A stretch of DNA of 64,000 nt, from contig NZ_JAAFZB010000092.1 of NCBI RefSeq assembly GCF_010692725.1, positions 186,001 to 250,000 on the forward strand, in the 5' to 3' direction. The translations under genes were made by a program, and so were the position numbers. Origin of the DNA: Flavihumibacter soli (lineage in GTDB: Bacteria > Bacteroidota > Bacteroidia > Sphingobacteriales > Sphingobacteriaceae). Shown one piece after another: positions 5,393 through 40,930 of the stretch; within the stretch, counting starts at the first letter, position 1; each line of letters starts with the position of its first letter. Below the pieces are notes generated by a model that worked only from the letters and a program-made list of their open reading frames with translations, did no database searches and was not told where the DNA came from.

Positions 5393-5414
5393 AATGTTCC
5401 TTTAACTATCATAA

Positions 5415-6094: not shown

Positions 6095-6100
6095 GGCAAT

Positions 6101-6186: not shown

Positions 6187-6219
6187 AAAAGAGCCTTTCA
6201 GATAGTGAAAGGCTCTTTT
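6187..6219. terminator. Bidirectional terminator between yceI and the metzincin gene
   Basis: A perfect 14-bp stem (6187-6200 with 6206-6219, loop GATAG) flanked by A and T runs lies between two convergent genes. Confidence 0.85.
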
Positions 6220-6237
6220 CTTTTACTCCATGTTGTT

Positions 6238-7059: not shown

Positions 7060-7412
7060 GTCTGGATTGGTTAATTTGTGAAATCATATATCAGAGTAAA
7101 ATATTTCTAAGAACCTTTAAAAGAGCATTGAAATCCATAACCGAACAAGGAAATCTTTTGTTTGGCGGGAAATCTTTTTTACTCCCTGACTTTAAGTGGA
7201 AGTGCGGAATTGAAACCCTTCCTGTAATAGAAGGTAAATATTAATTTTCTGAAGCACAAGCAGTTAAAAAGAAAAATTGTCAACTGCCTATGCACGTATT
7301 AGAGGGGAATAAACTCAGAGCTATCAATACAGACTTATTATGTTTAAATATGTAAACCGATAGTGCCTTTTAACGGTTACCCATAAACCTATAACCCCTA
7401 AACCCATAACCT
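7060..7412. other. Intergenic region upstream of the metzincin and exonuclease III genes
   Basis: Between two divergent genes. AT-rich, without a convincing TAnnTTTG box. The right end (7376-7412) is a 7-nt periodic array described separately. Nothing else recognised. Confidence 0.5.
7376..7412. repeat. Heptad array abutting the exonuclease III start
   Basis: GGTTACC, CATAAAC, CTATAAC, CCCTAAA and CCCATAA follow one another in a 7-nt register up to two bases before the TTG start codon at 7413. Confidence 0.6.
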
Positions 7413-8189
7413 TTGAAAATAGCTACCTATAACGTTAACGGCATCAACGGAAGGCTTCCGGTGCTGCTTCGCTGGCTCAAAGAATCGGCGCCGGATGTTG
7501 CATGTCTTCAGGAGCTTAAAGCTCCCCACGAGAAATTTCCGGAAGCCCAGATAAGGGACGCTGGTTACGAGCCTATCTGGCACGGGCAGAAAAGCTGGAA
7601 CGGGGTGGCTATTCTTTCGCGAATCGGGCAGCCGGAGGAGATAAACAGGGCGCTTCCCGGCGACCCTGAAGATTCACAAAGCCGGTACATTGAAGCGAAC
7701 GTTAACGGCATTCGAATAGCCTGCCTCTACCTTCCTAACGGCAACCCGGCTCCGGGACCAAAGTTTGATTATAAGCTGGGTTGGTTTAATCGTCTTCAAC
7801 TGCATTCTAAGGATCTTCTAAACCTGGATATGCCTGTGATCATGACCGGCGACTTCAATGTGATGCCAACCGAACTGGATGTTTATAAGCCTGAGCGATG
7901 GGTCAAGGATGCTCTCTTCCGCCCGGAAGTTCGGGCCGCTTTCCATGAACTGGCTGCGCAGGGCTGGACCGATGCGATACGTAAGCTCTATCCTGGTGAG
8001 GTTATTTATACCTTCTTCGATTATTTCCGTAATGCCTATGAGCGTAATGCCGGCCTGCGCATAGATCACTTTCTTCTAAATAAGAAACTGGACGGACGCC
8101 TTCTTAATGGGGGAGTCGACCTATACGTAAGAGGTTGGGAGAAAACAAGTGATCATGCACCGGTATGGATAGAACTGGCAGAAATTTAG
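7413..8189 (+). CDS. xth: Exodeoxyribonuclease III (AP endonuclease)
   Basis: DNA-repair nuclease of the EEP superfamily (exonuclease III/AP endonuclease), 258 residues. Motifs: KIATYNVNGI at the N terminus, CLQELK (metal-binding Glu), GDFNVMP, LRIDHFLLN and SDHAPVWIEL. The start must be TTG 7413-7415: an in-frame TAA lies at 7407-7409 and the conserved N terminus KIATYNVNGI follows the TTG at once. There is no purine-rich ribosome site; the upstream bases are a heptad repeat. An earlier stop may have been created when the repeat spread to the start codon. Confidence 0.93.
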   Translation: MKIATYNVNGINGRLPVLLRWLKESAPDVACLQELKAPHEKFPEAQIRDAGYEPIWHGQKSWNGVAILSRIGQPEEINRALPGDPEDSQSRYIEANVNGIRIACLYLPNGNPAPGPKFDYKLGWFNRLQLHSKDLLNLDMPVIMTGDFNVMPTELDVYKPERWVKDALFRPEVRAAFHELAAQGWTDAIRKLYPGEVIYTFFDYFRNAYERNAGLRIDHFLLNKKLDGRLLNGGVDLYVRGWEKTSDHAPVWIELAEI

Positions 8190-8313
8190 ACTCAACACTT
8201 TAAAAAACCAGCAATTCGTTCTGACAATATCCTGTAAGATAATTCAACAAAAATCCTGACATTCAAAAAGATATTCTGAATTTAGAGATACTAACGGTTG
8301 AATAATCGCACTG

Positions 8314-9753
8314 ATGGAAGAGATCGAAAATACAACTACGACAGTCGCAAAAGCGGATTCCGGACAAAAGCAATCGATATGGCATGAACTGAGAAACGCT
8401 ATCCGGGGTACCGAGGCCGATTATACGCAGATCGGTATCAGGAAAGCGATCTTCCTTTTGGCAGTCCCGATGATCCTGGAGCTGGTGATGGAGTCTACAT
8501 TCGCCGTCGTTGATATTTACTTTGTCAGCAAGCTCGGTGCTTCGGCGGTAGCCACTGTCGGCCTTACCGAAACCTATCTGTACCTGCTCTATTCCATTGG
8601 TATGGGCCTGGCAATGGCGGTAACGGCCATCATTGCCCGGCGGGTCGGCGAAAAGAACACAAAGGATGCCGGTATTTCAGCTGTCCAATCAATTCTCCTT
8701 GCCATTCTGGCATCAGTACCCTTTTCAATTGCCGGCATATTCTATGCTAAGGAATTGCTTGGGTTGATGGGGGCAGATCAGTGGTCCATAGAACATGGTT
8801 ACCTGTATACACGTTGGATGCTTGGCGGGAACATGGTCATCATGCTGCTGTTTGTCATTAACGCAATCTTTCGCGGAGCCGGGGACGCCGCAATCGCGAT
8901 GCGTATCCTCTGGATTGCCAATGGGATCAATATTATTCTCTGCCCCCTGCTAATTTTCGGATGGGGACCAATCCCGGCCATGGGGATAGAAGGCGCCGCA
9001 ATTGCTACGACAATCGGAAGGGGCACAGGAGTATTAACTCAGCTTTGGTACCTGTTTAAAGGGGGAAAACACATTAAAGTAAAACGCTCACAGCTCCAGG
9101 TGGATACCGCAAGCATGTTCAACATTGTTCGCACTTCGCTGGGTGGTATCGGCCAGATGATCGTAGCGATGACGTCCTGGATCTTTCTAGTGCGTATCCT
9201 GGCAGAAATAGGCAGCCAGGCAGTCGCTGGTTCTACTATTGCCATCCGGATCATGATGTTCACCATGATGCCGGCCTGGGGAATGTCGAATGCGGCCGCC
9301 ACGCTGGTAGGGCAGAACCTCGGTGCCGGTAACCCCGACCGTGCTGAATCTGCTGTCTGGAAAACCGGCACCTACAATATGATCTTCCTGCTTGGTGTAT
9401 CCCTCGTGTATTTCTTCTTTAATGATACCCTGATGCGCATTTTTACAGATGACAGCCGCGTTATCGCCGTTGGCGCAGAATGGCTGCGCATACTTTCTTT
9501 CTCTTATTTTGTATATGGCTGGTGGATGGTGTCCACTTCAGCATTTAACGGTGCCGGAGATACACGCACGCCGACAATGATAAATCTCGTATTCTTCTGG
9601 CTAATACAGATCCCCTTATCCTACTACCTGGCAATCATCCTCGACTGGCAGCAATCCGGCGTGTTCTGGGGTGTATTTGTTTCAGAAACCTCAGTGGGAC
9701 TTTTCACCCTATGGTTGTTTAACAGGGGCAAGTGGAAAACGGTGAAGGTGTAG
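8314..9753 (+). CDS. MATE-family multidrug/Na+ efflux transporter
   Basis: Twelve-helix inner-membrane antiporter of 479 residues. After a hydrophilic head (1-44) come the MATE repeats, with AVPMILELVMESTFAVVDIY in helix 1-2 and, in the second half, AGSTIAIRIMMFTMMPAWG and ATLVGQNLGAGNPDRAESAV. Two NGAGDTRTPTMI/FRGAGDAAIAMR blocks mark the two halves. It closely resembles the NorM/DinF group. The neighbours give no clue to the substrate. Confidence 0.92.
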   Translation: MEEIENTTTTVAKADSGQKQSIWHELRNAIRGTEADYTQIGIRKAIFLLAVPMILELVMESTFAVVDIYFVSKLGASAVATVGLTETYLYLLYSIGMGLAMAVTAIIARRVGEKNTKDAGISAVQSILLAILASVPFSIAGIFYAKELLGLMGADQWSIEHGYLYTRWMLGGNMVIMLLFVINAIFRGAGDAAIAMRILWIANGINIILCPLLIFGWGPIPAMGIEGAAIATTIGRGTGVLTQLWYLFKGGKHIKVKRSQLQVDTASMFNIVRTSLGGIGQMIVAMTSWIFLVRILAEIGSQAVAGSTIAIRIMMFTMMPAWGMSNAAATLVGQNLGAGNPDRAESAVWKTGTYNMIFLLGVSLVYFFFNDTLMRIFTDDSRVIAVGAEWLRILSFSYFVYGWWMVSTSAFNGAGDTRTPTMINLVFFWLIQIPLSYYLAIILDWQQSGVFWGVFVSETSVGLFTLWLFNRGKWKTVKV

Positions 9754-10159
9754 AAACAATTATGTTTTTGTTTAGAGTAGTTGGTGACGACTTTCTTACG
9801 ACCTTGTTTATATTCCTGTTAACCGGGCAACGCTAATCGGTCCTCTATCCCAGTTTTAATAGAACATTCAACGATCGATCAAATTGTAACTACTAACTTG
9901 CAATACTGATGTTTTAGAATATCTTTAGAGCAAAAAGTAAATTATTTTCGTTAATCGGAAATGCATTAACTGATAAATAGTATGGGTTTGCTTGTTTAAC
10001 AGGACCTTATAATATATTCGAGCGAAATCATCTATGGAACGCCCTACATTCGAAGAACATCCCAATCATTCGTCCGGTGTGCAACCGGTAGAACTTCCTG
10101 TGACATCATTCTCTGCGGGTGACCCTGCATCTAACAATTCCATTCAAGAAACGAAAAAT
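9754..10159. other. Intergenic region
   Basis: About 400 bp, AT-rich. The first part after the MATE stop lacks a hairpin. An in-frame upstream extension of the next gene begins at 10034, but family members start at the later Met. Nothing else recognised. Confidence 0.4.
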
Positions 10160-10906
10160 ATGGAAGTACACCACCACGCACATCATGATCATGGAAAGAA
10201 AAACTGGAAAAGCTATTTCTGGGAATTTATGATGTTATTCCTGGCCGTGTTCTGTGGATTCCTGGCCGAATATCAGCTGGAACATAAGATTGAAAGCGAC
10301 CGGGAGGAAGTCTATATCAAGTCGATGATTGAAGATCTGCAAAAGGACACGATGAATTTGGCCTCTGTTATAAGAGACTTTCAAATGCTCGATTTAAAGC
10401 TGGATACTGTTTTGAAGATGTATCCCAAGCTTTCAACTGGATATAATGATACGTTGTGGAGAAATGTTGAAGCAGTAGGGGGCTATCCGGATTTTATTTA
10501 TTCTGACCGGACCATGCAACAATTAAAAAATTCCGGGGCCATGCGTTTGATCAGAAATAAGAAAGTAACTGACGGAATTGCCAGTTATGATTCAAATGTT
10601 CGGGATCTTATCACTGTTGACATACCGGGTGTTTCCATTGAGTTTATGGCTACCAGAGAACTAGTGCATAAGATATTTGATCAGCAAAATTTCGCAATAG
10701 ACTGGAAAACGACATCGATAGCTCAAATGAAAAAAGCGAATAAAAATTATCTTTTAAAAAGCGATCAGGCCTCACTAGGCGAATTCTACAACAGCGTCTA
10801 TAGTCTTAAACATGTATACCAAATGATAAGTGGAAAGGAAACATTATTATACAAGGAGTCTGCATCATTAATTAACTTGTTAAAAAGCCAGTATAAATTG
10901 GAATAA
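10160..10906 (+). CDS. Membrane-anchored protein with His-rich N terminus (DUF6090-like)
   Basis: Protein of unknown function, 248 residues from ATG 10160. It starts with a His-rich cytoplasmic head (MEVHHHAHHDHGKKNWKSYF), then one membrane helix (about 21-40, EFMMLFLAVFCGFLAEYQLE) and a helical domain of about 200 residues. This architecture is widespread in Bacteroidota. An in-frame ATG at 10034 would add 42 residues of low-complexity sequence; I prefer 10160 because relatives begin with MEVHHH. The His-rich stretch suggests metal binding, which is inference only. Confidence 0.75.
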   Translation: MEVHHHAHHDHGKKNWKSYFWEFMMLFLAVFCGFLAEYQLEHKIESDREEVYIKSMIEDLQKDTMNLASVIRDFQMLDLKLDTVLKMYPKLSTGYNDTLWRNVEAVGGYPDFIYSDRTMQQLKNSGAMRLIRNKKVTDGIASYDSNVRDLITVDIPGVSIEFMATRELVHKIFDQQNFAIDWKTTSIAQMKKANKNYLLKSDQASLGEFYNSVYSLKHVYQMISGKETLLYKESASLINLLKSQYKLE

Positions 10907-10989
10907 GTTAAAATTTGAATTTAAAGAACAGGTTGAACCAGTACCTTTTACTCAGAAAAACTTGCGTCTATTTTAATTGGAGCTTCTAA

Positions 10990-11184
10990 ACTTGTCCCAA
11001 CCGCAAGGGCTTGCATATTGATTTGATAAGCAAAGATCCAAATGAACCGTATACAGTCTTCACCACCGAAATTAGGGACAGCAATAAAGACCATGATAAT
11101 TCGCTGAATGGTGTTGGAGCGGGAGCAGTTTCAGAGTATATTGTCTCACCATACATACATTTTTGTCTAAATGCTAAGTACTAA
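10990..11184 (+). other. Open, startless coding-like stretch, possible gene remnant
   Basis: An open stretch of 64 codons with no usable start (contains GLHIDLISKDPNEPYTVFTT and SLNGVGAGAVSEYIVSPY) ends in a stop formed by the heptad array. The amino-acid composition looks protein-like, but I do not recognise a family. It could be the tail of a decayed gene or chance. Confidence 0.25.
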
Positions 11185-11198
11185 ATACTAACTACTAG
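11164..11198. repeat. Heptad array abutting the glutaminase-family start
   Basis: TGTCTAA, ATGCTAA, GTACTAA, ATACTAA and CTACTAG follow in a 7-nt register and end two bases before the ATG at 11201. Confidence 0.65.
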
Positions 11199-11200
11199 TA

Positions 11201-13669
11201 ATGAAACGACCGATCTTAAACCTGCTCTTCCTCCTAATCACCTTCTCCTTATTTGCACAGGACCAAAAAGCGCCAGCTTACCCTTTAATTACACATGACT
11301 CCTATTTCAGTATCTGGTCCTTTGGAGATACATTAAATAACGTTACGACAAAGCATTGGACCGGATCAAATCAATCTTTACTTGGCTACATTAAAGTCGA
11401 TGGTAAAGTTTATCGCTTTTTAGGAAGGGAGGAACCTGTTTACCGAACGCTGCTACCGGCCGCGGATGAGTCTTCATACCGGGTAAAGTATACAGAAACA
11501 GCACCGGCGGACGGCTGGGTTGATCCACGCTTTGATGACAGTGCCTGGAAAACGGGAACAGCGCCTTTTGGAGATCATGCAGAGGCCGGAACCCCATGGA
11601 AGACCAGGGATCTCTGGATCCGCCGGGAATTCACTCTGAATGATCTGAAGTTTAATGACCTGTTCCTGAAGATCAGGCATGACGACGCTGCGGATGTTTA
11701 CATAAATGGAGAGAAGGCCGCTCACATACCGGGAGCCTCCGGTAAATTCAAGTACATCAGCCTCGAAGACTCCATAAAGAAAAAGCTGAAACAGGGTAAA
11801 AATATTTTAACGGTTCATTGTGTTAATACCGGCGGGGCCGCAATTCTCGATGCCGGGATAGTGGAACGGCGAGTGCAGAAGCAGGATGACCGGATCGTCA
11901 TAGCGAAGCAAAAAAGCGTCAACCTGACAGCAACGCAGACAATCTACCAGTTTGTTTGCGGTGGTGCAGACCTTACAGTGAAATTCACTTCGCCCTTGCT
12001 GCTGGATGACCTGGAACTGTTGTCAAGACCGGTCTCTTATATTTCGTTTGAGATAAAGGCAAATGACAATGCAAGCCATGACGCGGAGATTTTCCTGGGG
12101 GCATCTACGGATATTTCTGTCGACCTCCCGTCTCAGCAGGTGGCGGGAAGGAAGTATGAATCGGGTGGGCTGTCGATATTGAAAGCGGGCAGCACCGGAC
12201 AGGAGATTCTAAAAAAGAAAGGCGATGATCTTCGTATAGACTGGGGGTATATGTATGTCGCCGTGCCTTCGGATTCCAGGTCTAAACAGTATTTCACGAC
12301 GCAAAGCGAAGCTGCTGAATCATTTATTAGCAGTACCGGGCAGAATTCATTCACCAAAGGGGGCAAGAAGCTGTTCCTGAACACGGTTATACCTTTCGGG
12401 AAAATATCATCGGCAGCAAAGGAGCAATATGTTCTGATGGCATATGATGATCTTTACTCGGTCCAGTACTTTGGTCAGAACTTAAAGCCCTGGTGGAAAA
12501 ATGATCCTGGCCAGACCATTGAAAAGGTATTGCAAAAGGCCTCCGCAGAATACCGCCTTGTTATGAAGAAGCGTGAAGCCTTTGACAGGAAACTTTTCTC
12601 TGACGCAAAGGCGGCGGGTGGTGAAACTTACGCGAAGCTTTGTGAAATGGCTTACCGGCAAAGTATCGCCGCTCATAAGCTGGTGAAAAGTCCCGATGGT
12701 GAATTACTGTTTATGTCTAAGGAAAACTTCAGCAACGGATCCATCAATACCGTCGATGTGACGTACCCCTCTGCTCCGTTGTATCTGATCTATAACCCTG
12801 ACCTGCTTAAAGGTATGCTGAACGGGATCTTCTATTACAGTGAAAGCGGGCGCTGGAAAAAGAACTTTGCGGCTCATGACCTCGGAACCTACCCGATAGC
12901 CAACGGGCAGACCTATCCGGAAGATATGCCGGTCGAAGAATCGGGTAACATGCTGATCCTGACCGCTGCTATTGCCAAAGCCGAAGGGAATGCTGATTAT
13001 GCTAAAAAACACTGGAAGGTTCTAACTACCTGGGCGGAGTTTCTATCGAAAGAAGGTTTTGATCCTGCTAACCAGCTATCGACAGACGACTTTGCCGGCC
13101 ACCTGGCAAGAAATACCAACTTATCCGTCAAAGCCATAGCAGGCCTGGCCGGCTACGGGATGCTGGCGGGGATGCTTGGAGACCAGGCGACCTCGGCTAA
13201 ATACAACACCATGGCTAAGGATATGGCCAGGCGCTGGATGAGCATGGCTGATGCGGGAGATCATTACACACTCACCTTTGATGATAAAAATACCTGGAGT
13301 CAAAAATATAACCTGGTATGGGATAAGTTATTGGGACTGGGTTTGTTCCCTGCCGAAGTTTATAAGAAGGAGATCAACTTTTACCTCGGAAAACAGAATA
13401 GGTACGGCTTGCCTTTAGATAGTCGAAAAACCTATACCAAGTCCGACTGGATCATATGGACCGCTACTTTAGCTGACAATCAGAATGACTTCGATGCGTT
13501 AATAAAACCCGTTTTTAAATTCGCAACCGAAACACCCGACCGGGTACCTCTAAGCGACTGGCATGAAACCACATCCGGTAAGATGGTCGGCTTCCAGGCA
13601 AGAAGTGTTGTAGGCGGATACTTTATCAAAATGCTTGCCCATAAATTGGCATCCAAAGCAACGAACTAA
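11201..13669 (+). CDS. Exported glutaminase-family protein (DUF4964/DUF5127/DUF4965/DUF1793)
   Basis: Large secreted protein of 822 residues with an SPI signal peptide (about 1-19, LFLLITFSLFAQ). The domain series is that of the fungal glutaminase A family as found in Bacteroidota: DUF4964 (PAYPLITHDSYFSIWSFGD), then DUF5127, DUF4965 and an alpha-helical DUF1793-type toroid at the C terminus (FNLVWDKL-like YNLVWDKLLGLGLFP, GLPLDSRKTYTKSDWIIWTA). A beta-sandwich insert at about 90-180 (WIRREFTLND, IRHDDAADVYING) resembles a galactose-binding fold. The enzymatic activity in bacteria is not certain. It stands alone and is followed by a terminator. Confidence 0.88.
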   Translation: MKRPILNLLFLLITFSLFAQDQKAPAYPLITHDSYFSIWSFGDTLNNVTTKHWTGSNQSLLGYIKVDGKVYRFLGREEPVYRTLLPAADESSYRVKYTETAPADGWVDPRFDDSAWKTGTAPFGDHAEAGTPWKTRDLWIRREFTLNDLKFNDLFLKIRHDDAADVYINGEKAAHIPGASGKFKYISLEDSIKKKLKQGKNILTVHCVNTGGAAILDAGIVERRVQKQDDRIVIAKQKSVNLTATQTIYQFVCGGADLTVKFTSPLLLDDLELLSRPVSYISFEIKANDNASHDAEIFLGASTDISVDLPSQQVAGRKYESGGLSILKAGSTGQEILKKKGDDLRIDWGYMYVAVPSDSRSKQYFTTQSEAAESFISSTGQNSFTKGGKKLFLNTVIPFGKISSAAKEQYVLMAYDDLYSVQYFGQNLKPWWKNDPGQTIEKVLQKASAEYRLVMKKREAFDRKLFSDAKAAGGETYAKLCEMAYRQSIAAHKLVKSPDGELLFMSKENFSNGSINTVDVTYPSAPLYLIYNPDLLKGMLNGIFYYSESGRWKKNFAAHDLGTYPIANGQTYPEDMPVEESGNMLILTAAIAKAEGNADYAKKHWKVLTTWAEFLSKEGFDPANQLSTDDFAGHLARNTNLSVKAIAGLAGYGMLAGMLGDQATSAKYNTMAKDMARRWMSMADAGDHYTLTFDDKNTWSQKYNLVWDKLLGLGLFPAEVYKKEINFYLGKQNRYGLPLDSRKTYTKSDWIIWTATLADNQNDFDALIKPVFKFATETPDRVPLSDWHETTSGKMVGFQARSVVGGYFIKMLAHKLASKATN

Positions 13670-14023
13670 GCATTTTTAATTTTAGATATTCAGGTTTCAA
13701 AGGCGGAATTATAAATTCTGCCTTTGTAGTTTTCCAGTTGTTTAAGGCCTTTACGTGTAAATCCAATCAAACGGCTTATTTGTGAGTGTGCCTTTAGAAA
13801 TATTCCTGAATTAAAGCCTAACTTTACTTTAACTCACAAAATTTATTTATTAATTTTATTTCAACGATTGTTTGGAGAGTGCTTTATCCCCATTTTTCAA
13901 TTTATTTCTAAAGTTCTGAACAAAGCCGCCCAGCTTTATCGCCGATCCTAGCTATCATATTCTTTCAGCATTCTCATCCCGCAATTACTAGGAATTTAAT
14001 TTTTCAATTTAAAAATCAAGAAA
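13670..14023. other. Intergenic region with terminator
   Basis: Contains the hairpin at 13698-13726. The rest, 13727-14023, is AT-rich upstream sequence of the lipoprotein gene; no clear promoter box was found. Confidence 0.5.
13698..13726 (+). terminator. Terminator-like hairpin after the glutaminase-family gene
   Basis: A 12-bp stem (13698-13709 with 13715-13726) with one G-U pair and an AT-rich 5-nt loop, then TAGTTTT. Confidence 0.65.
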
Positions 14024-14563
14024 ATGAAAAAGTTGATCTTACTGATAGCGATCGGATTATCGCTTTCCTGTGAAAAGGAAAAGGTCCAAAATCAAACTGA
14101 GGACATTCAACTCAGCAAAGCAACGGCTGAAATATCGTCCAACGGAGCAAGCCAGATATCCGGGCTTGGCACGTATGCGGTAACGGGTGAATGTGAACCG
14201 CTGCTTGAAGGCGCCGCCTATGCCATTAAAATGACCGGGGAGCTTGAGGGTTGCCTCTACGCATTCATAGACAACTTCGAATGCTCACCAAGCGGAACAT
14301 ACCGGGAAAGTGGCAGAGAGTACTTTGTTGGCACCTACAAGGGAGTGGCCGGAACATTCTGGACTGGTTATGAATTCGCGGGCAGGTATGAAGGATGTCC
14401 CGAAAATGGCGAGGCATTAGGCGCTGAAATCTTCGGACGTTGTCAACATCCGATTGTGCCAGGCAGCGGCGAGGGAGTTTTCGAAGGTGTCACCGGTCGC
14501 CTGGACTTTAAGGACGACATCGAAGCGCAAAATTTCCCTTATAGGGGTCACCTTCGGTTTTAA
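14024..14563 (+). CDS. Lipoprotein of unknown function, beta-barrel-like
   Basis: Exported protein of 179 residues with a lipoprotein signal (LIAIGLSLSC, Cys16). The mature part is rich in Gly and aromatic residues and has six Cys. The C-terminal block SGEGVFEGVTGRLDFKDD followed by FPYRGHLRF recalls the DUF3224/allene-oxide-cyclase-type barrel proteins, but this assignment is tentative. Neighbours give no functional clue. Confidence 0.7.
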   Translation: MKKLILLIAIGLSLSCEKEKVQNQTEDIQLSKATAEISSNGASQISGLGTYAVTGECEPLLEGAAYAIKMTGELEGCLYAFIDNFECSPSGTYRESGREYFVGTYKGVAGTFWTGYEFAGRYEGCPENGEALGAEIFGRCQHPIVPGSGEGVFEGVTGRLDFKDDIEAQNFPYRGHLRF

Positions 14564-28051: not shown

Positions 28052-28468
28052 TTATTGATCGCGTCTGTCTTTTAATTCTTTGATCATTTGTTCCCGGAAC
28101 TCTCGCTCGGCGTTAAAATAGGAAAGCACTTTATCCGGGGGCAATACTTTTGAGAATTCATCCTTATATTTCTTGCGGATGTTCAGTATACGGCTTTCAA
28201 AATCCAGCTCGTTATCCAGTTTGTTATTAGGATCAGCCTTTTGCTTTGCACGGGCCTCTCTTCTTTGTTTATAAATGACCCGCAATTCCTGCTGATAATT
28301 ATTGTATACCGGCCAGAATTTCTCGGCTTCTGAAGTGCTTAGATCTAATTTCTGGGTGATGTAGGCTACTTTTAAGGATTCTATCTGTTCGTAACGCTGG
28401 CTTTTGTCCTGCGCTGAAAGGGGCAGGGCTATCACCATACAGATAAGGAAACTCCAGATCATTCTCAT
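28052..28468 (-). CDS. Periplasmic sensor protein of an ECF sigma operon (CpxP/Spy-like)
   Basis: 138-residue exported helical protein. It has a signal peptide (FLICMVIALPLSAQ), then KLDLSTSEAEKFWPVYNNYQ, a Bacteroidota counterpart of the CpxP/Spy LTxxQ pattern, and a charged coiled-coil region. It is third in an operon of sigma factor, anti-sigma protein and this protein (12-bp gap), and similar genes are annotated as sensor of ECF-type sigma factor. It probably monitors envelope stress. Confidence 0.82.
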   Translation of the reverse strand: MRMIWSFLICMVIALPLSAQDKSQRYEQIESLKVAYITQKLDLSTSEAEKFWPVYNNYQQELRVIYKQRREARAKQKADPNNKLDNELDFESRILNIRKKYKDEFSKVLPPDKVLSYFNAEREFREQMIKELKDRRDQ

Positions 28469-28480
28469 ATTTATTCTGTT

Positions 28481-29110
28481 TTATAAGCTTGTGCTAATAT
28501 ACTCTTCCAGTTCGGCATCAGAAATATCACCGCTGAGGTCAGTGAGATTTACATTCTGTCCCAGGCTTTCCAGGATCATCGGGGTATCGCCGATATCGGA
28601 ATGAATTTGCAGATAATTAATAATCTCCTGGTCAGGGATGTGGCTTATTCCTGCCTCAAATGTGTCTTTCTGGTTATTGAAGATAAGCACTGAACCTAAT
28701 ACAACGGTTACACAGGCGGCCGCTGCGTATCTGATCCAGTTTGTACGGATAGGTCTTATCAGCGCTTCGGCAGGCTTTGCAGGGACAGTTGTGCCTGCTA
28801 AAATGTTTTGCTGCAGGGTAGTGAAGTATCCTTCGGGTACGGTAAATCCAGACGAAGGAGCATATCCCCTGATAACTTCCTCGGCTATTCTGCTTTCAGT
28901 CTGTTGGATGAGTGATTCAAAATAATCAGCGGGGACCGGAAATTCCTCTTCATTACTGAACCTGGAATCCTCGATAACACAGCGGGACCTGATATCGTTT
29001 TCCAGATTGCTGAAGTAATTCTCGGGTACGGTAAATGGATTCTTTTTATCTGTTGCAGATAATAATGGCGCTTCTTCCATCCAATCATTACCGGTATTCT
29101 CTAAATCCAT
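28481..29110 (-). CDS. Putative membrane anti-sigma factor
   Basis: 209-residue protein with a cytoplasmic N-terminal half holding three repeats of the form FxVPxxYFxxL (NPFTVPENYFSNLEN, FPVPADYFESL, FTVPEGYFTTL), one membrane helix at about 127-146 (IRYAAAACVTVVLGSVLIFN) and a short periplasmic tail. Position between the ECF sigma gene and the sensor gene suggests it sequesters the sigma factor through the repeats; that role is inferred. It starts 30 bp after the sigma gene. Confidence 0.78.
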   Translation of the reverse strand: MDLENTGNDWMEEAPLLSATDKKNPFTVPENYFSNLENDIRSRCVIEDSRFSNEEEFPVPADYFESLIQQTESRIAEEVIRGYAPSSGFTVPEGYFTTLQQNILAGTTVPAKPAEALIRPIRTNWIRYAAAACVTVVLGSVLIFNNQKDTFEAGISHIPDQEIINYLQIHSDIGDTPMILESLGQNVNLTDLSGDISDAELEEYISTSL

Positions 29111-29140
29111 ATTCTTAAGATGTGAAATTCGTTCAAAGGT

Positions 29141-29689
29141 TTAATCGGTATTTAAAAGATAGTGCTCGATTTTCTTAACTGCCAGGTGAAAGGATGCTTT
29201 CAGGCCCCCGACACTGGTGCCCAGGATCTCCGAGATCTCGTCATATTTAAGATCGTCGAAATACTTCATGTTGAACACAAGTCTTTGTTTTTCAGGGAGG
29301 GTAAGCAGTGCTTTCTGCAGCTTTAATTGCGCTTTATCGCCGTCAAAATAAGTGCTGTCGGCAAGTGACTCAGCGAGGTCATAACCTACTTCGTCAAGCG
29401 GGACATTATTTTTCAGTTTCTGGCGATTGAGAAAAGTGATGCTTTCATTAGTCGCTATCCGGTAAAGCCAGGTGTAAAGCTGTGAGTCGCTTCGGAAGTC
29501 AGCCAGATTTTTCCAGACTTTAATGAAAACTTCCTGTACCAGGTCGTCGGCGTCATCGTGATTGATAACAAGCCTCCGGATATGCCAGTATATTTTTTGT
29601 TGGTATTTTTTTAAAAGCAGATTGAATGCTTCGTTCCTGGAAGCAGGATCAGCGAATTTTTGAAGTATTTCAGAGTCTTCCGCTTGCAT
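29141..29689 (-). CDS. RNA polymerase ECF sigma factor
   Basis: 182-residue ECF sigma factor. Region 2: DDADDLVQEVFIKVWKNLAD and YTWLYRIATNESITFLNRQK; region 4: LPEKQRLVFNMKYFDDLKYD and GTSVGGLKASFHLAVKKIEH. First gene of the three-gene operon with an anti-sigma and a sensor protein. A near-match -7 box on the minus strand (TATCTTTA, complement of 29755-29762) could be its promoter. Confidence 0.93.
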   Translation of the reverse strand: MQAEDSEILQKFADPASRNEAFNLLLKKYQQKIYWHIRRLVINHDDADDLVQEVFIKVWKNLADFRSDSQLYTWLYRIATNESITFLNRQKLKNNVPLDEVGYDLAESLADSTYFDGDKAQLKLQKALLTLPEKQRLVFNMKYFDDLKYDEISEILGTSVGGLKASFHLAVKKIEHYLLNTD

Positions 29690-31873: not shown

Positions 31874-33145
31874 ATGATTAAAAATTTACCTCCGCTTTTC
31901 AAGTGTAAAAAATTAGCCGGCAAAATAATTGTCGTTTTAGCTTTCGGCTGCATATTCCATACCGGTGCTTTCGCGCAGACTGGTTCCGTTGGTATAGGAA
32001 CGGAAGCTCCCAATGAGCAATCAGTCCTCGATATCGTTTCCGATTCAAAGGGCTTACTAATCCCGCGCTTAACTTTAACGCAACGAAATACATTACAGGC
32101 GCCGGGTTCAAGTAATTCTCAAATAAACGGTCTTCTTATTTATAATGTTACTGATCAGCGCTTCAATTTTTGGCTTAATGATCAGTGGTATGATATTTCT
32201 AATGGTGCCATGGGCCCACAGGGACCTCAGGGACTTGTTGGTCCTGCCGGAGCTATAGGCCCGGCTGGTGCCCAAGGGCCTGTTGGCACTCCGGGTCCTC
32301 AGGGTGTTCCGGGTCCTGCCGGTGCAACCGGTCCCGCCGGAGCTATGGGCCCTGCTGGTGCTCCGGGTCCTGCTGGTGCTCCGGGTCCGCAAGGTGATGA
32401 TGGTCCCGCAGGTCCTGTTGGTCCTGCCGGTGCTCCGGGTCCTGTTGGTGCTCCGGGTCCGCAAGGCAGTAATGGTCCCGCAGGCCCTCCGGGACCGCAG
32501 GGTATTAACGGTGCCACTTGGCTGAATGGCAGTGGTGCTCCGACGGCTGCACTCGGCGTTCAGAATGATCTCTATCTGGATAACGATCTGGGAGACGTTT
32601 ATATTAAAGGTGCCGGTGGCTGGGGATTATCCGCTAATATTAAAGGACCAGTCGGACCTAGTGCAGAAAGTGGATGGCTTAAAAATGGAAACGCCGGAAC
32701 TACTCCGGGAACATCAGGTGATTTTATAGGTACCCGCGACGCCCGTGATTTCGTTATCGGAACTAATCTTGTCGATCGTTTAAGAGTTTCATCCAGCGGT
32801 AACGTAGGCATAAACACCATAGCTCCAACCAGAAGGCTGGATGTGAACGGCAACGTAAGAATCGGTGCCAGTGGAACAACCATCAATAATATCATCAAAG
32901 CAAGTAACCCTGGCAATATTCCTGTGGTAGCAGCTGGAAGTTCCGTTATAGTTACTATCCCTGTAGCTAATGCGGCAGTAACATCATCAGTATCTGTATC
33001 ACCGGCGAATGCATTGCCTGATGGCCTGCTTATAGCTTATGCTCGTGTTTCTGTTGCAGGGACTGTTGAAATAAAATTTACTAATGTTGCAGGCACTGCA
33101 ACCACTGCCATTGCTCAGACTTTCCATATTACCATAATCGAGTAG
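31874..33145 (+). CDS. Exported collagen-like repeat protein
   Basis: 423-residue exported protein. A signal peptide ends at about 35 ([10 protein letters not shown]). A head region common in Bacteroidota surface proteins follows ([52 protein letters not shown]). Residues 111-215 (DNA 32204-32518) are 35 unbroken Gly-X-Y triplets rich in GPA, GAP and GPQ, expected to form a collagen triple helix, thus a trimer. After it come a tail-fibre-like block ([30 protein letters not shown]) and a beta-rich C-terminal domain. There is no T9SS sorting domain. It is first in a four-gene operon with T9SS genes (1-bp gap to the next). Confidence 0.88.
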
Positions 33146-33146
33146 T

Positions 33147-34346
33147 ATGAAAAAGACAGTAATGCTGATGCTGCTAGCAGCGGGAGCCTGCCTGCAAACA
33201 GCCCGATCACAGGTCGTGAACCGCGGATCTCAAATTAGTGTCTCAGAAGGAGCTATATTCTTTATTGACGATGCGTTCAATAATTACTCAGGTACTATAT
33301 TGAATAACGGCCGGCTGATCGTAAAAAAGGACTGGCAGAATAACGATGCCTCATCTACTGTGTTCAATAGATCGTCCACAGGAGTGGTTGAGTTTTCAGG
33401 AGACGCACAGCTGATAGGCGGAGCCAGTAAGACCGAATTCCCTTCACTTAGCTTTTCCGGTACCGGGCTAAAGTTTCTGGGTATTAATATGGATGTTACC
33501 GGTACACTGAGTTTGAACGATATTGAGCTGAAGACAGACGCTTATACACTTTCCGTTTTAAATTCAAGTCCTGACGCTATCACGAGAGGTACAGGCTTTA
33601 TCAGTACAGATAATAAAGGGAAGCTTGTGCGCATAATGAATTCGCCGGCTAGTTATCTTTTTCCTCTCGGCTCGGCTGACGGGGGTGCACCCGTCTACAG
33701 ACCACTGCAGGTAGAAATGACCGATGCGGTTCAGAATACTTTCACAGCCTCATTTGTTAAAAAGGATCCTTCAACAGAAGGTTATAGCCGCCAAAGTAAA
33801 AGGCCTGATGTAGAAACGGTCTTTGAAAAATACTTTTACCTGATCGATCAGAACGGATCATCTAAATTGAATATCCGGTTCGTTCAAAACTCTGCTGAAG
33901 ATGGAATATTAAAGCAATTAGTAAACTGGAACCGCTTTAACCTTTGGGAAAAAGCCGGCCCGTCCACAGTCGCTAAAGGCTCTTTCGGTGACGGACTTGA
34001 CCAAAATATTTTATTTGCTTCAAATGATGTCATCACGAATCTTCCGGTCACCCTCGCGGCAATTAAGGATGAAGGACCATTTACATTCTTCAATGCTTTT
34101 TCACCTGATGGCGACGGGAAGAACGACACATGGGAGATAAAGAATCTTGATCAGTTCCCTAATAATGATCTGACAGTGTTCAATCGTTGGGGTGACGAAG
34201 TTTTTAAAGCTAAGAGCTATTCATCTTCCAATGCATGGAATGGGGGAAGCTTGAATCCCGGGACCTATTATTACATCCTGAATGTGAATGTTGACGGTGT
34301 ACAAAAATCGTATAAGGGATTCATCACTATGGTTAAGAAAGATTAA
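33147..34346 (+). CDS. T9SS type B sorting-domain (gliding-motility C-terminal) protein
   Basis: 399-residue secreted protein with signal peptide (about 1-21). The middle is beta-rich with repeated Asn/Gly turns. The last 85 residues are a type B CTD: FFNAFSPDGDGKNDTWEIKN, LTVFNRWGDEVFKAKSYSSS and PGTYYYILNVNVDGVQKSYK. Type B cargo in characterised species needs a partner PorP/SprF, and that gene follows after 1 bp. It probably is a surface adhesin or anchor for the operon. Confidence 0.92.
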   Translation: MKKTVMLMLLAAGACLQTARSQVVNRGSQISVSEGAIFFIDDAFNNYSGTILNNGRLIVKKDWQNNDASSTVFNRSSTGVVEFSGDAQLIGGASKTEFPSLSFSGTGLKFLGINMDVTGTLSLNDIELKTDAYTLSVLNSSPDAITRGTGFISTDNKGKLVRIMNSPASYLFPLGSADGGAPVYRPLQVEMTDAVQNTFTASFVKKDPSTEGYSRQSKRPDVETVFEKYFYLIDQNGSSKLNIRFVQNSAEDGILKQLVNWNRFNLWEKAGPSTVAKGSFGDGLDQNILFASNDVITNLPVTLAAIKDEGPFTFFNAFSPDGDGKNDTWEIKNLDQFPNNDLTVFNRWGDEVFKAKSYSSSNAWNGGSLNPGTYYYILNVNVDGVQKSYKGFITMVKKD

Positions 34347-34347
34347 T

Positions 34348-35325
34348 ATGAAAAGACTTAGCATAGTAATTCTATTATGGTGTTTAAGCTTGGGTGCTTA
34401 TGCACAGCAGGATGCGCAGTTTAGCCAGTATATGTTTAATAGCCTGGTTATTAATCCTGCTTATGCAGGCTATAAAGAAGAATTGAACCTGAGCCTGCTT
34501 CATCGCAACCAGTGGGTTGGTTTGCCGGGTTCACCTAAGACACAGACCTTAATTGTCGACGGTGCTTTTTTTAATAATAAAAATGTGGGTCTTGGCTTAA
34601 GTATAGTAAATGATAAGATAGGACTTCAGTCTCAAACAGCAGCCTATGCAAATTATGCTTACAGAGTGCCTGTAGGAGAGAATGCGCGTCTGGCCTTCGG
34701 TCTTGCTCTTGGAGTTTCACAATATTCACTTAACGCCGGGCAGGCCAGCATTGACGATCCTAATGATCCGAACTTTAACAACGGAAACCAGAATTATTTT
34801 TCACCTGATGGTAAGTTTGGAATTCACTACAGCGATGATAAATTTTATGCAGGTGCATCTGTAACAAATATGATCTCAAGTTCGCTGAATTACCAGCAAA
34901 CCGGCAAGGATGTGATTGCCCGCCAGGGTAAGCATTTCTTTGTAACGGCGGGTTATTTAGCAGAGTTGAATGAAAATGTTAAATTTAAACCCTCGGTCAT
35001 GTTTCGTGAGGACACAAAAGGTCCAACAAACCTGGATGTGAATGCGTTTTTCCTTTTAAAGGATGCTGTATGGCTGGGTGCATCTTACAGAACCGGCTTG
35101 AATCTGTGGGAAAAACCCGAGTGGGAGAGCGGCACATTCAAAAAGAATGCAGTCGTTGGCGCGGTGGAAATGTTCTTTGCCCGGAAATATCGACTTGGCT
35201 ACGCTTATGATTATTCATTATCTGATTTAGGAGACTATACTAACGGGACTCATGAAATTTCCCTCGGTATCATTATCAGCAACAATAAAAAAGTTACCGC
35301 GATGCCTACTCCAAGGTATTTCTAA
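34348..35325 (+). CDS. PorP/SprF-family type IX secretion membrane protein
   Basis: 325 residues from ATG 34348, one base after the stop of the preceding gene; an upstream in-frame start at 34288 would overlap that gene and lacks a signal. Signal peptide MKRLSIVILLWCLSLGAYAQ, then the family block QDAQFSQYMFNSLVINPAYA and GLGLSIVNDKIGLQSQTAAY, HRNQWVGLPGSPKTQ. An outer-membrane beta-barrel is expected. SprF-like proteins are dedicated to the type B cargo encoded beside them. Confidence 0.93.
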   Translation: MKRLSIVILLWCLSLGAYAQQDAQFSQYMFNSLVINPAYAGYKEELNLSLLHRNQWVGLPGSPKTQTLIVDGAFFNNKNVGLGLSIVNDKIGLQSQTAAYANYAYRVPVGENARLAFGLALGVSQYSLNAGQASIDDPNDPNFNNGNQNYFSPDGKFGIHYSDDKFYAGASVTNMISSSLNYQQTGKDVIARQGKHFFVTAGYLAELNENVKFKPSVMFREDTKGPTNLDVNAFFLLKDAVWLGASYRTGLNLWEKPEWESGTFKKNAVVGAVEMFFARKYRLGYAYDYSLSDLGDYTNGTHEISLGIIISNNKKVTAMPTPRYF

Positions 35326-35336
35326 TAATTAATTCA

Positions 35337-37313
35337 ATGAATTACAGAAAAATTTTAATCGCAACGGCATTCAGTTTCTTTATTTATTTCCTTCCGCAGA
35401 ATATTTTTTCCGATAACATCGAGAAGGCAGATAAATACTATGAAAAGTATGATTACAAATATGCCATTGACCTTTATGAAAAGGTTATGCTGAAAAAGCC
35501 ATCCCTGGAGGTAGCACAAAAGCTGGCTAACTGCTATCGATTTATCAATGACACGGAAGCTGCCGAACAAGCATATGCAAGGGTTCTGACTTTTGAGGAT
35601 TTTGAGCCCATTAATTACAAGTATTATGCTGATGCGCTAAAGCAGAACTCCAGATTTGATAAGGCTAAAGAGAATTTCCTGTTATATGGACAAGCGGTTC
35701 CTTCTAAGTCTGAAGAGGCCAGGGTATTGGCCAACGCATGCGATGCGGCAAAGATGTGGGCTGAAAATCCTGAGCCAAATGTAAGTATTGAAAACGAGTT
35801 AGGTCTCAATTCTGAATACTCTGAATTTTCGCCGGTTAAATATAAAAACGGGTATGTATTCGTTTCCGATCGCTGGTTTGTGAAGACCGATGCTTCTAAA
35901 AAGAGTGACGAGGTTTATGGATGGACAGGAAATCCCTATCTGAAGCTTTATGAGAGTAGCGGTGAGAGCTCCCCGAAGTTGAGCTTGTTGCCCAAGCCGG
36001 TTAACAACGAGTTTCATACCGGGTCTGCAGTATTTACAGCGTCAGGCGACACAATTTACTTTTCGCGTTCTGAAGCTGATAACTCGAAGAAAGGTAAGGG
36101 TAAAGTAATAGGAAGAAATTTCATATACTACTCGGTAAAAACAAATAATGAATGGTCCGAACCTGTTGCGCTTGGCTTCAACAGTGATGCAACCTTTTCG
36201 GTTCAGCATCCTGCAATTTCTGCTGACGGAAACATACTTTATTTTGCCTCAGATATGCCAGGCGGGCTGGGAGGAAATGATATTTATGCTTCCCGCAAAA
36301 CTTCATCCGGCAGTTGGGGAAATCCAGTAAACTGCGGGCCCAATGTCAATTCGACTGACGATGAAGGGTTTCCATCGGTCAGTGTAGAGGGGAATCTATA
36401 CTTTTCTTCAAAGGGTCATGTGGGTATGGGCGGACTTGATATTTTCACTGCCAAAGGCAGTTACAATAACTTCGGGATAGCTGAAAATTTACGATCACCT
36501 ATAAACTCGCCAAAAGATGACTTTGGACTCCTGTATCTCAATGATAAAAGCGGCCTAATTTCTTCAAACAGAAACGGAGGTCGCGGGCTGGATGATATAT
36601 ATCGTTTTAACATATCAACTCCTAAGCTTGCTGAAGCGCCGGTTTTAGCGGTCGAAGGGCAGGTGCTCGACAAAGAAGATGGCTCAGTACTTGCACAATT
36701 GCCGATTCATCTGATCAATACTCAGACAGGTAAGCAGCTTACAGTACTTTCAGACGCTTCAGGCAAGTTCCGCTTCGATCTTGAAGCCGATCAGAATTAT
36801 ATAATTAAAGGCGACGACAATCGCTATTTTACCCGCCAGGAAGGCCAGATATCAACCAAAGGCGTGACGGAATCAACAACCTTCAGCGTTAAATTTGAGC
36901 TGGAAAGAAGCGACGCGGCTTACCTTGTCCGCTTAAATAATATCCATTACGACTTCAATAAATGGAATATTCGCCCCGATGCAGCGAATGAAATGAACAA
37001 GGTGTTGAGCTTTATGATGAACACCCCGAATGTCAATATAGAGATGCGGGCACATACGGACTCCCGGGGTACTGCTGCATACAACCAGCTCTTATCGCAA
37101 AAGCGCGCCGAATCAGCTGTTGCTTATTTGCGTAACAATGGCGTGAACGCTGACCGCTATACCGCTGCAGGTCTGGGAGAAACACAGTTGCTGACCACTT
37201 GTGGTAGTGGCCCTTGCACTGAGGCAGATCACCAGTTAAACCGACGTACCGAATTTAAAGTTGTAAAAATGAAACCTGCAGCTAGTAGTTTAACTGCTTC
37301 GTTGAGAAAATAG
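35337..37313 (+). CDS. OmpA-family protein with TPR, propeller and CRD (PorE-like)
   Basis: 658-residue exported protein. After a signal (about 1-25) come TPR helices (about 25-115, ADKYYEKYDYKYAIDLYEKV), PD40/propeller repeats (about 155-425, ISADGNILYFASDMPGGLGG and SVEGNLYFSSKGHVGMGGLD), a carboxypeptidase-regulatory-like domain (about 440-515) and a C-terminal OmpA domain (about 540-648, NIEMRAHTDSRGTAAYNQLL, LSQKRAESAVAYL) that binds peptidoglycan. This order matches PorE of Porphyromonas. It closes the four-gene operon and would anchor the T9SS attachment machinery to the cell wall. Confidence 0.92.
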   Translation: MNYRKILIATAFSFFIYFLPQNIFSDNIEKADKYYEKYDYKYAIDLYEKVMLKKPSLEVAQKLANCYRFINDTEAAEQAYARVLTFEDFEPINYKYYADALKQNSRFDKAKENFLLYGQAVPSKSEEARVLANACDAAKMWAENPEPNVSIENELGLNSEYSEFSPVKYKNGYVFVSDRWFVKTDASKKSDEVYGWTGNPYLKLYESSGESSPKLSLLPKPVNNEFHTGSAVFTASGDTIYFSRSEADNSKKGKGKVIGRNFIYYSVKTNNEWSEPVALGFNSDATFSVQHPAISADGNILYFASDMPGGLGGNDIYASRKTSSGSWGNPVNCGPNVNSTDDEGFPSVSVEGNLYFSSKGHVGMGGLDIFTAKGSYNNFGIAENLRSPINSPKDDFGLLYLNDKSGLISSNRNGGRGLDDIYRFNISTPKLAEAPVLAVEGQVLDKEDGSVLAQLPIHLINTQTGKQLTVLSDASGKFRFDLEADQNYIIKGDDNRYFTRQEGQISTKGVTESTTFSVKFELERSDAAYLVRLNNIHYDFNKWNIRPDAANEMNKVLSFMMNTPNVNIEMRAHTDSRGTAAYNQLLSQKRAESAVAYLRNNGVNADRYTAAGLGETQLLTTCGSGPCTEADHQLNRRTEFKVVKMKPAASSLTASLRK

Positions 37314-37328: not shown

Positions 37329-37365
37329 AAATGAAAAAGGCTTCCTATGGAAGCCTTTTTCATTT
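37329..37365. terminator. Bidirectional terminator after the T9SS operon
   Basis: A perfect 17-bp stem (37329-37345 with 37349-37365), 3-nt loop, with A and T runs inside the stem, between convergent genes. Confidence 0.9.
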
Positions 37366-40381: not shown

Positions 40382-40930
40382 TTAAAGCACAGAGATCCGC
40401 TTGATAACAGTCTCAGTACCGACGATCAGCCTTACAAAATAGAAGCCGCTCGTGAGCTTAGAGGCAATACTAAAGGAATGATTTTGTTGCCCGGCTTGCA
40501 CCCGCTCAGAATAAAGGGTTGTCACTTCATTTCCAAGCACATCCATGATCATGATGGTGACGTTTGAATCCTTGCTAACGAGGTAGGTTAGGTTGAGCTG
40601 GTCCGTTACCGGATTAGGATAAACTTTAACATTGTTAAGGATCTTGTTATCATCACCTTCAATAGTATCTACTTCGCTGATCTTGGGCGGTACTGTGGAA
40701 GTATTGCCGAAGACCTTATCCACTTGAGGTTTAAAGGGCACGAAATTTACCTTGACACCGTTTTTAAGGTAGGCAGGTTTATTTTTTCGTGTATCGGTAA
40801 TCTTTGTCCTGGTAGTTTTCGTTGTATCAGCAGGACTAACCTGTACCCGTGCTTGTACCACACCAGACACCAGCACACAAAGGGCGGTGACAAGTGTAAA
40901 CGCTACAATACGCAGGTAAATTTTTTTCAT
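40382..40930 (-). CDS. T9SS type A sorting-domain protein
   Basis: 182-residue secreted protein: signal peptide (about 1-27), a low-complexity Thr/Lys-rich linker (TTKTTRTKITDTRKNKP), and a type A CTD from about 103 (VKVYPNPVTDQLNLTYLVSK, SGFYFVRLIVGTETVIKRIS). There is no catalytic domain, so the protein is mostly a sorting domain with a short N-terminal part. It stands alone next to a divergent kup gene. Confidence 0.9.
   Translation of the reverse strand: MKKIYLRIVAFTLVTALCVLVSGVVQARVQVSPADTTKTTRTKITDTRKNKPAYLKNGVKVNFVPFKPQVDKVFGNTSTVPPKISEVDTIEGDDNKILNNVKVYPNPVTDQLNLTYLVSKDSNVTIMIMDVLGNEVTTLYSERVQAGQQNHSFSIASKLTSGFYFVRLIVGTETVIKRISVL

Follow-up and report, generated by a model that had tools for sequence, protein, structure and literature searches.

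A fibre gene without a recognised T9SS domain leads a type B CTD/PorP/PorE-like operon in Flavihumibacter soli and its relatives

Cargo of the T9SS is normally recognised by its C-terminal domain (CTD). Among the closest described systems, the type B CTD protein PG1035 of P. gingivalis forms a complex with PorP and the lipoprotein PorE, for which static wall anchoring was proposed (accessible portion of PMC9143113), and operons of type B CTD, SprF and PorE genes are present in F. johnsoniae (accessible portion of PMC12618676). The stretch of Flavihumibacter soli DNA analysed here (64,000 nucleotides; hereafter the window) contains an operon that, as far as these portions describe the two systems, resembles them in encoding a type B CTD protein, a PorP/SprF protein directly downstream and a PorE-like OmpA protein, but differs in being led by a gene for a CTD-less fibre protein (Table 1). 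The CTD-B protein is short and has a fibre-associated N-domain, and in contrast to the P. gingivalis lipoprotein PorE the last gene product is nearer to CHU_0125 and has no lipobox. The literature covered, partly seen and with preprints and most subscription papers outside its scope, yielded no link between collagen-like or tail-fibre proteins and the T9SS or SprF.

Table 1. Features of the fibre operon (positions within the window; FIBN and CTDBN are names coined here)
Feature	Position	Strand	Remarks
Gene 1, fibre gene P0001, 423 aa	31874..33145	+	ORF
Fibre N-domain FIBN, residues ~36-107	31979..32194	+	VGIGT...GLLIPR...GLLIYN...WYD
Collagen-like shaft, residues 111-215	32204..32518	+	35 Gly-X-Y triplets
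Neck motif, residues 300-336	32771..32881	+	similarity to Bd2133 and tail-fibre PHROGs
C-terminal head, residues 340-423	32891..33142	+	predicted beta-sandwich like phage tailspike C-terminal domains
Gene 2, T9SS adaptor P0002, 399 aa	33147..34346	+	N-terminal fibre-associated domain and type B CTD
Adaptor N-domain CTDBN	33201..34043	+	all-beta model; fibre-locus marker across Bacteroidia
Type B T9SS C-terminal domain, residues 314-394	34086..34328	+
Gene 3, PorP/SprF family outer-membrane protein, 325 aa	34348..35325	+	presumed adaptor shuttle/anchor
Gene 4, PorE/CHU_0125-like P0004, 658 aa	35337..37313	+	TPR - PD40 - CarboxypepD_reg - OmpA (peptidoglycan-binding type)
Possible terminator, hairpin with T tract	37334..37360	.	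between convergent operon and bcp; by eye

The operon and its products

The four genes lie on the plus strand with intergenic gaps of 1, 1, and 11 bp, as the original prediction described, and their reading as an operon-like block is supported. Genes were called with a purpose-made greedy ORF picker; for gene 3 the mechanical ORF opens at 34288, and the start preceding the signal peptide was used in Table 1. The possible terminator was seen by eye only and is absent from the computed hairpin scan listing. In several genomes the operon is flanked by tkA and bcp. The 4.4-Mb genome also encodes SprA, four PorP-family proteins, and at least seven loci that match the CTD-B protein (P0002 itself counted); P0001 is its sole match to PF01391 at E ≤ 0.001.

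The fibre protein P0001 comprises, in this order, a Sec-type signal peptide (up to about residue 35, ending ...AFA/Q as judged by eye), the N-domain FIBN, a collagen shaft, a tail-fibre-like neck, and a C-terminal head. FIBN has no Pfam match and was found in all adaptor-adjacent fibres examined, save one cut by a contig end (L062) and one split over two frames (G166). The triplets of the shaft run without interruption and match Collagen PF01391 with 52.9 bits (cut-off 27.2). A Gly-X-Y shaft is shared with the collagen-like adhesins of other bacteria, Scl1/2 and Lcl, whose profiles match mostly along it; however, the scores are far under the cut-offs (73.8 vs 325 and 60.4 vs 500), and the ends and the anchor are different. 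The neck has local similarity to Bd2133, a mosaic adhesive trimer (MAT) fibre of Bdellovibrio (8ond, E 1.2e-5). Like the MAT fibres, as described in the accessible portion of PMC10769870, P0001 is a chimeric tail-fibre-like bacterial protein; unlike them, it has a collagen shaft, belongs to a T9SS adaptor operon, and has no Bdello_MAT_N (NF053851) match listed at E ≤ 1.

In structure models, all of single chains, the predicted head resembles the C-terminal domain fold of phage tailspikes such as KP32gp38 and HK620 with moderate scores (6tku, Z 8.3, rmsd 2.8, 83 aligned residues; HK620, Z 6.2); dUTPases and snail lectins reach Z 5-6, values of Z 5-8 can reflect a common arrangement, and the best Foldseek match was weak (Bdellovibrio Bd2439 fibre, E 0.08). 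In contrast to the tailspikes, the operon is chromosomal, and the head was found neither in phage records (tblastn) nor in IMG/VR contigs at the sensitivities used. These results, together with the location of the gene, which tkA and bcp flank in several genomes, and the confinement of whole-protein PHROG matches mostly to the collagen and neck regions, led us to reject a prophage tail-fibre gene. The absence of a CTD from the collagen-like protein was predicted correctly: the matches listed for P0001 at E ≤ 1 include no T9SS sorting domain. Neither an LPXTG motif (by eye) nor a lipobox-like tetrapeptide was found in P0001; the latter occurs in one of eight operon fibres and in 4 of 35 relatives, always within a seemingly ordinary signal peptide.

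The adaptor P0002 exceeds the curated cut-offs of CHU_C PF13585 (85.7 vs 27) and of the TIGR04131 type B sorting domain (47.7 vs 35), and the modelled fold of its CTD matches that of the T9SS substrate CTD 8glk_D (Z 9.3, rmsd 2.0, 74 aligned residues). Neither the CTD-B protein nor the PorP protein gave a useful sequence match in the PDB. The product of gene 3, directly downstream, matches PorP/SprF TIGR03519 with 296 bits (cut-off 90.55). P0004 exceeds the cut-offs of OmpA PF00691 (55.9 bits vs 27.2) and PD40; CarboxypepD_reg is slightly under its cut-off (30 vs 32.3) and the TPR matches are weak. Thus, the family names given in the original prediction hold for collagen, type B CTD and PorP/SprF, whereas the protein called PorE-like scores better with NCBIfam CHU_0125_OmpA (NF053607, 457 bits, under the cut-off of 620) than with T9SS_PorE (NF052230, 381.8 bits, under the cut-off of 600). 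Its best NCBIfam match is CHU_0125 of Cytophaga hutchinsonii (accessible portion of PMC5891637, where the neighbours of CHU_0125 are named but not described), yet under the curated cut-off, and we describe P0004 as PorE-like without filing it as PorE. It has no lipobox, because no Cys is present among its first 60 residues (by eye); lipobox-like tetrapeptides occur in 3 of 28 relatives, P0004 not among these, within ordinary-looking signal peptides. Judged by sequence, genes 2 to 4 look like a self-contained anchoring set resembling the published PorE-PorP-type B CTD module. This much of the earlier proposal stands; the CTD-B protein is more than a single cargo, as CTDBN marks fibre loci across Bacteroidia.

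Conservation of the gene block and the wider association of fibre and adaptor

Of 201 family genomes sampled, 29 encode a full-length adaptor. At each of the 30 loci defined in this way, the fibre gene is the immediate upstream neighbour, at distances of -11 to +16 bp (mechanical start codons). This count includes G166, where two frames share the fibre gene and its ORF, lost by the picker, was later recovered. Relatives keeping genes 2 to 4 without gene 1 were sought, as the original prediction had suggested, and none was found among these 30 loci. Four further operons (L062, L065, L074, and L077), which bring the total to 34, were found through the fibre and therefore are no test of its constancy. 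The orthologue counts depend on E-value limits of 1e-35, 1e-7, 1e-90, and 1e-65, and the HMMs were made from 8-9 operon members and are therefore biased toward close relatives. At least 10 Gly-X-Y triplets are present in 20-21 of the 34 loci and fewer than 10 in 13, the longest total shaft having 174. We therefore reject the notion that collagen is essential: of the collagen-repeat leader proposed earlier, the constant neighbour gene is retained, the collagen itself is optional, and 'fibre gene' is the better name.

The closest departures from this arrangement are as follows. One decayed operon (G113/L108) retains fibre and PorP stubs and an open PorE frame, and has no CTD-B gene; in G169 and G173 a contig edge cuts the operon before the fibre. 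Second copies in G121 and G060 encode a CTD-B protein of 170-175 aa without the N-domain and without a fibre-HMM match, with an interrupted-collagen protein two genes upstream in G121 and partial masking in G060. A reverse scan of genome contigs with the head gave 27 loci: the four-gene order is present at 18 of the 18 that bear Sphingobacteriaceae/Sphingobacteriales-type names, and the module is absent from the available DNA at the 9 outside Sphingobacteriaceae, several on short contigs and one a doubtful match. Of 20 genomes of the genus, 4 carry the operon, with the fibre gene adjoining tkA, and in 13 tkA and bcp abut, a pattern of block gain or loss.

The association extends beyond the family. 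Among the matches listed, a fibre lies within three genes of 18 of 20 CTDBN loci outside the family; of 20 other CTD-B loci, taken from these genomes as controls, 1 has such a neighbour (Fisher p 6e-8). The test loci were the best-scoring one per genome, genomes examined earlier being left out; the controls, one per genome, were chosen by hand rather than at random and measure 421-916 aa, apart from one of 1026 aa and one of 1416 aa, and some loci of both sets are cut by contig ends. In the earlier set, a fibre was found at 6 of 9 CTDBN loci (6 genomes) vs 2 of 20 controls not matched for length (p 0.004). T9SS sorting domains are present on 25-26 of 28 CTDBN proteins (type B on 14, type A on 12; the L187 adaptor, split over two frames, was excluded) and on none of 35 neighbouring fibres at E ≤ 0.001, two of which (L171 and L174) are C-terminally cut. 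These 35 were taken from 41 fibre-flagged neighbours after exclusion of five locus-end pieces and one 160 aa ORF; one matches Bdello_MAT_N and four match Peptidase_S74. Similar fibre-partner gene pairs occur in many Bacteroidota families. We reject chance adjacency on the grounds of synteny, the loss of whole blocks and the comparison with control loci.

An inherited neighbourhood, in which the fibre has no physical interaction with the other three products, would agree with the co-evolution test at the proposed interface: across 30 operons, FIBN and CTDBN gave no clear signal above the background measured with PorE (partial rank correlation 0.08, a value reached in 86 of 500 permutations), so that the co-evolution sought between them was not seen. 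For FIBC and CTDBN the correlation was 0.15 (reached in 18 of 500 permutations), whereas the fibre domains correlated with the CTD and with PorP at 0.33-0.42 (reached in 0 of 500). We nevertheless regard a mere shared neighbourhood as very improbable, since the association recurs in 10 of 12 class-test families, among the matches listed, with other gene orders and CTD types.

A proposed displayed stalk and its alternatives

We propose, with a probability of roughly 60%, that the operon encodes a 'split adhesin', in which a CTD-less trimeric stalk is displayed by a short T9SS adaptor. The fibre subunit, with no known outer-membrane export signal, would be exported by Sec and trimerise via the head, with its resemblance to tailspikes, and via the shaft of collagen or other repeats; the N-terminal beta domain of the adaptor would bind the fibre, and the type B CTD would carry the adaptor and the bound fibre through SprA. 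Binding and co-export are suggested by gene neighbourhood. By analogy with published relatives, the CTD would then remain on PorP, which the peptidoglycan-binding PorE-like protein would fix to the wall. The product would be a static stalk of variable length, with about 30 nm of collagen here as estimated from 105 residues, and with a head at its far end, probably for ligand binding, consistent with a role in adhesion. A broader and more tentative reading, to which we give somewhat less than even odds, is a T9SS piggyback: the adaptor domain, interchangeably on type A or type B CTDs, would recruit large CTD-less trimeric fibres, both collagen-like and tail-fibre-like, in the periplasm, and these would leave via SprA.

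We know of no CTD-less T9SS passenger, and the accessible portion of one T9SS review (PMC10202324) holds no relevant passage on such proteins. A T9SS signal hidden in the fibre was rejected on the lack of sorting-domain matches in P0001 and 35 relatives; T9SS CTDs are likewise not among the best 50 structures listed for the head, where a hidden signal is still possible. Since no T9SS domain was detected on any of the 35 fibres, and head and N-domain are found away from the module too, the fibre might be exported without the T9SS, by another route or an unrecognised signal in its head, the adaptor merely catching it at the surface. We consider this unlikely: the constant operon link and the block loss favour a joint route, and the operon contains no other export gene.

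Still less probable is that the CTD-B protein itself acts as the adhesin and that the fibre stays in the periplasm, as a scaffold or spacer between this protein, PorE and peptidoglycan, even though the fibre has a Sec-type signal without a lipobox and the periplasm could host a long rigid protein. Shafts of up to 174 triplets would measure about 150 nm (at 0.29 nm per residue), far more than the periplasm, and the head resembles tailspike C-termini with moderate scores. Moreover, many CTD-B proteins at other PorP-PorE loci are giants (13 of 20, with 983-4535 aa), vs about 400 aa for the adaptor. Against the split adhesin, short CTD-B proteins without a fibre also exist, at two PorE-paralogue loci (515 and 519 aa) and among most short controls. 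A fibre lies upstream of the CTD-B gene at 1 of the 8 PorE-paralogue loci, out of 20, whose upstream neighbour is visible; in the rest a giant ORF or a contig end intervenes, or the CTD-B gene itself is not visible.

Should the piggyback reading be true, the fibre-adaptor pair would represent a general appendage system with two components in Bacteroidota, and no earlier class of T9SS passengers that lack a CTD is known to us. The finding bears on whether the T9SS can export preformed complexes, and it could provide a way to display collagen of various lengths on bacteria. If fibres ride on an adaptor, a class of surface proteins escapes current secretome predictions for Bacteroidota, and a display mechanism would be at hand for the phylum's collagen-like and tail-fibre-like proteins.

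Products of the operon

The four co-directional genes of the operon, spaced by 1, 1 and 11 bp in the window ORFs, encode in order a collagen-like protein (the fibre, P0001), a type B CTD protein (the adaptor, P0002), a PorP/SprF protein and a TPR-propeller-OmpA protein (PorE-like) according to profile searches, and the gene order, gaps and product types of the original prediction are thereby borne out. SprA is encoded in the same genome. The ORFs beside another PorP gene (locus L045) are presumably GldK-N, judging by their sequence starts. Near the operon lies a gene for a 182 aa protein, and ORFs resembling the sigma-factor-like gene set recur at many of the syntenic loci examined.

P0001 starts with a Sec-type signal peptide, recognised by eye, and a conserved N-domain, after which lies a collagen shaft of 35 Gly-X-Y triplets. 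Its neck motif (residues 300-336) is common to Bdellovibrio MAT fibres (8ond, E 1.2e-5) and is also found in tail-fibre PHROGs. The head (residues 340-423) was modelled confidently (block pLDDT 89-97; 76 for the entire model). Foldseek gave only weak matches for it, led by a Bdellovibrio fibre (E 0.08), and a second structural comparison placed phage tailspike C-terminal domains at the top; the head aligned with 6tku and 9qrm at Z 8.3 (rmsd 2.8, 83 aligned) and with the HK620 tailspike at Z 6.2, and dUTPases and snail lectins also score Z 5-6. Model confidence and structural neighbours support a putative β-sandwich of the often-trimeric kind, homology to tailspikes not being proven by fold scores. 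The profile search listed no T9SS sorting domain for P0001, as anticipated for a collagen-like protein without a CTD.

P0002 (model pLDDT 88) combines an all-beta N-domain, for which the structural hits scatter over yeast adhesin-like A-domains and tailspikes at Z of about 6-8, with a C-terminal domain resembling T9SS CTDs in both sequence and fold (8glk_D, Z 9.3).

Features of the window and of related loci (genome and contig handles in brackets)
Feature	Coordinates	Strand or position	Basis
Window: sigma-factor-like gene and two small partners, beside tkA/tkB	28052-29689	-	by eye
Window: four-gene operon	31874-37313		window ORFs
Window: hairpin with T tract	about 37334-37360	3' of operon	by eye
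Window: 182 aa protein, C-terminus reads like type A T9SS sorting domain	40382-40930	- (opposite to operon)	by eye
L039 (G005:C27): second, divergent operon; several fibre-like ORFs in series, then adaptor, PorP, PorE	2-14161
L108 (G113:C58): decayed operon; fibre and PorP stubs, PorE-like frame open	8571-11184
L109 (G121:C2): interrupted-collagen protein, 1184 aa DUF285-repeat protein, 170 aa CTD-B protein, PorP, PorE	3139-12941
L111 (G018:C10): CTD-B/PorP pair, then gene with weak fibre-head match	8116-12522
L182 (family f28): N-domain protein	4550-7060
L184 (family f28): N-domain protein	9191-10459

Conservation of the operon

The adaptor alignment was matched in 32 of 201 sampled family genomes, with a full-length copy in 29 genomes (30 loci). 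The survey of gene order, set beforehand as a test, found a fibre gene just upstream at all 30. The remaining three genomes have fragments at contig edges (G169, G173) or a partly matching 462 aa protein preceded by collagen proteins of 1288 aa and 529 aa (G219). Four named loci found via the fibre bring the operons read to 34, each of which keeps the fibre-adaptor-PorP-PorE order, with adaptors of 393-415 aa. Fibres range from 238 to 1066 aa, the exceptions being G166, whose fibre is split between two reading frames, and L062, truncated where its contig ends. The counted ORF has at least 10 triplets in 20 of the 34 (21 if G166 is included), and fewer than 10 in 13: one in G030 with other repeats, ten short fibres (238-263 aa) and two longer ones (864 aa in the second copy of G005, 361 aa in G097). 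Given this constant position and the differing repeats and lengths, the shaft is interchangeable; the operon is fibre-led, with collagen optional. Fibre HMMs match two of four fibre-like ORFs in L039 and four upstream ORFs at L090 (G097).

A reverse scan of named genomes with the head gave 27 loci. The operon is present at 18/18 with Sphingobacteriaceae/Sphingobacteriales-type names, and no module was seen within the DNA examined at each of the other nine (Chlorobiota, Chitinophagaceae, Runella and others), including one doubtful match, L082.

Among the matches listed, 31 of the 201 family genomes carry a PorE orthologue (>700 bits): 28 of the 29 adaptor genomes plus G113 (with the decayed L108), G169 and G173; in the adaptor genome G097 the best PorE copy reaches 436 bits. 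In the genus, 19/20 genomes yielded tkA, which lies next to the fibre gene in four, abuts bcp in 13, stands beside a different gene in G013 and is at a contig end in G012. L111 belongs to a genus mate lacking the operon.

Association of the adaptor N-domain with fibres

The adaptor N-domain is matched (1e-15) in at least 91 of 198 genomes of the class. We took 20 N-domain loci from 12 families (best-scoring, one per genome, previously read genomes excluded) and used as controls 20 CTD-B loci of another kind in those genomes. A locus counted as positive if a gene with FIBN (fibre N-domain), FIBC (fibre head) or 10 or more triplets lay on its strand no more than three genes away. Fibre genes were nearby at 18/20 N-domain loci versus 1/20 controls (p 6e-8). 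In an earlier set drawn from other genomes, fibres accompanied 6/9 N-domain loci (six genomes) versus 2/20 controls (p 0.004); those controls were not matched for length, and most came from different genomes within that sample. At each of the two positive controls, a collagen-like gene accompanies a small CTD-B protein, of 244 aa in one and 173 aa in the other. Sorting domain matches among 28 N-domain proteins were of type B in 14 and type A in 12, and by eye the C-termini were 14 B, 11 A and three without, one of them truncated. Since fibres occur at 18/20 loci and the CTDs are of both types, the N-domain goes with the fibre, not with a particular CTD type. None of the 35 neighbouring fibres (two lacking the C-terminus) matches a type A or type B sorting domain; 24 match Collagen, four Peptidase_S74 (endosialidase chaperone) and one Bdello_MAT_N, and the latter two matches would tie these fibres to MAT-type chimeric fibres. 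The L182 and L184 proteins have similar C-termini with no T9SS sorting domain recognisable by eye, and each adjoins fibre genes.

Among 20 loci with more distantly related PorE paralogues, 13 carry CTD-B ORFs of 983-4535 aa, so that a single giant adhesin is a common cargo there. At two further loci the CTD-B protein measures 515 or 519 aa and no fibre is present, L128 has a 430 aa adaptor with a fibre, and four are unassignable, owing to truncation or because no CTD-B gene was seen; at 8/20 the gene upstream can be seen. The window-type operon divides the stalk from the T9SS-tagged part, with a gene for each. The CTD-B protein of the second module copies in G121 and G060 measures 170-175 aa; in G121 the interrupted-collagen protein lies two genes upstream, and L109 resembles another split-adhesin layout, without the adaptor N-domain.

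Proposed anchoring and export

The last three operon genes are of an already known kind, in line with the self-contained anchoring set envisaged originally: PMC9143113 and PMC12618676 describe a complex of PorE, PorP and a type B CTD protein, SprB with SprF bound, and postulated wall anchoring of nonmobile type B proteins via PorP-PorE-like complexes. The literature searches made turned up nothing on a fibre as partner, on an adaptor domain linked to it or on the pairing of that domain with both CTD types. T9SS substrates are thought to exit SprA CTD-first, with a carrier, according to PMC10994853. This published work and the neighbourhood data suggest that the adaptor would bind the fibre and that the two would be co-exported. 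A co-evolution test on 30 operons gave no support for an interface between the fibre and adaptor N-domains, and the main rival is that the fibre leaves by another export route. The bolder reading, to which we tentatively assign a probability of about 0.4, is that the fibre would be exported piggyback on the adaptor.
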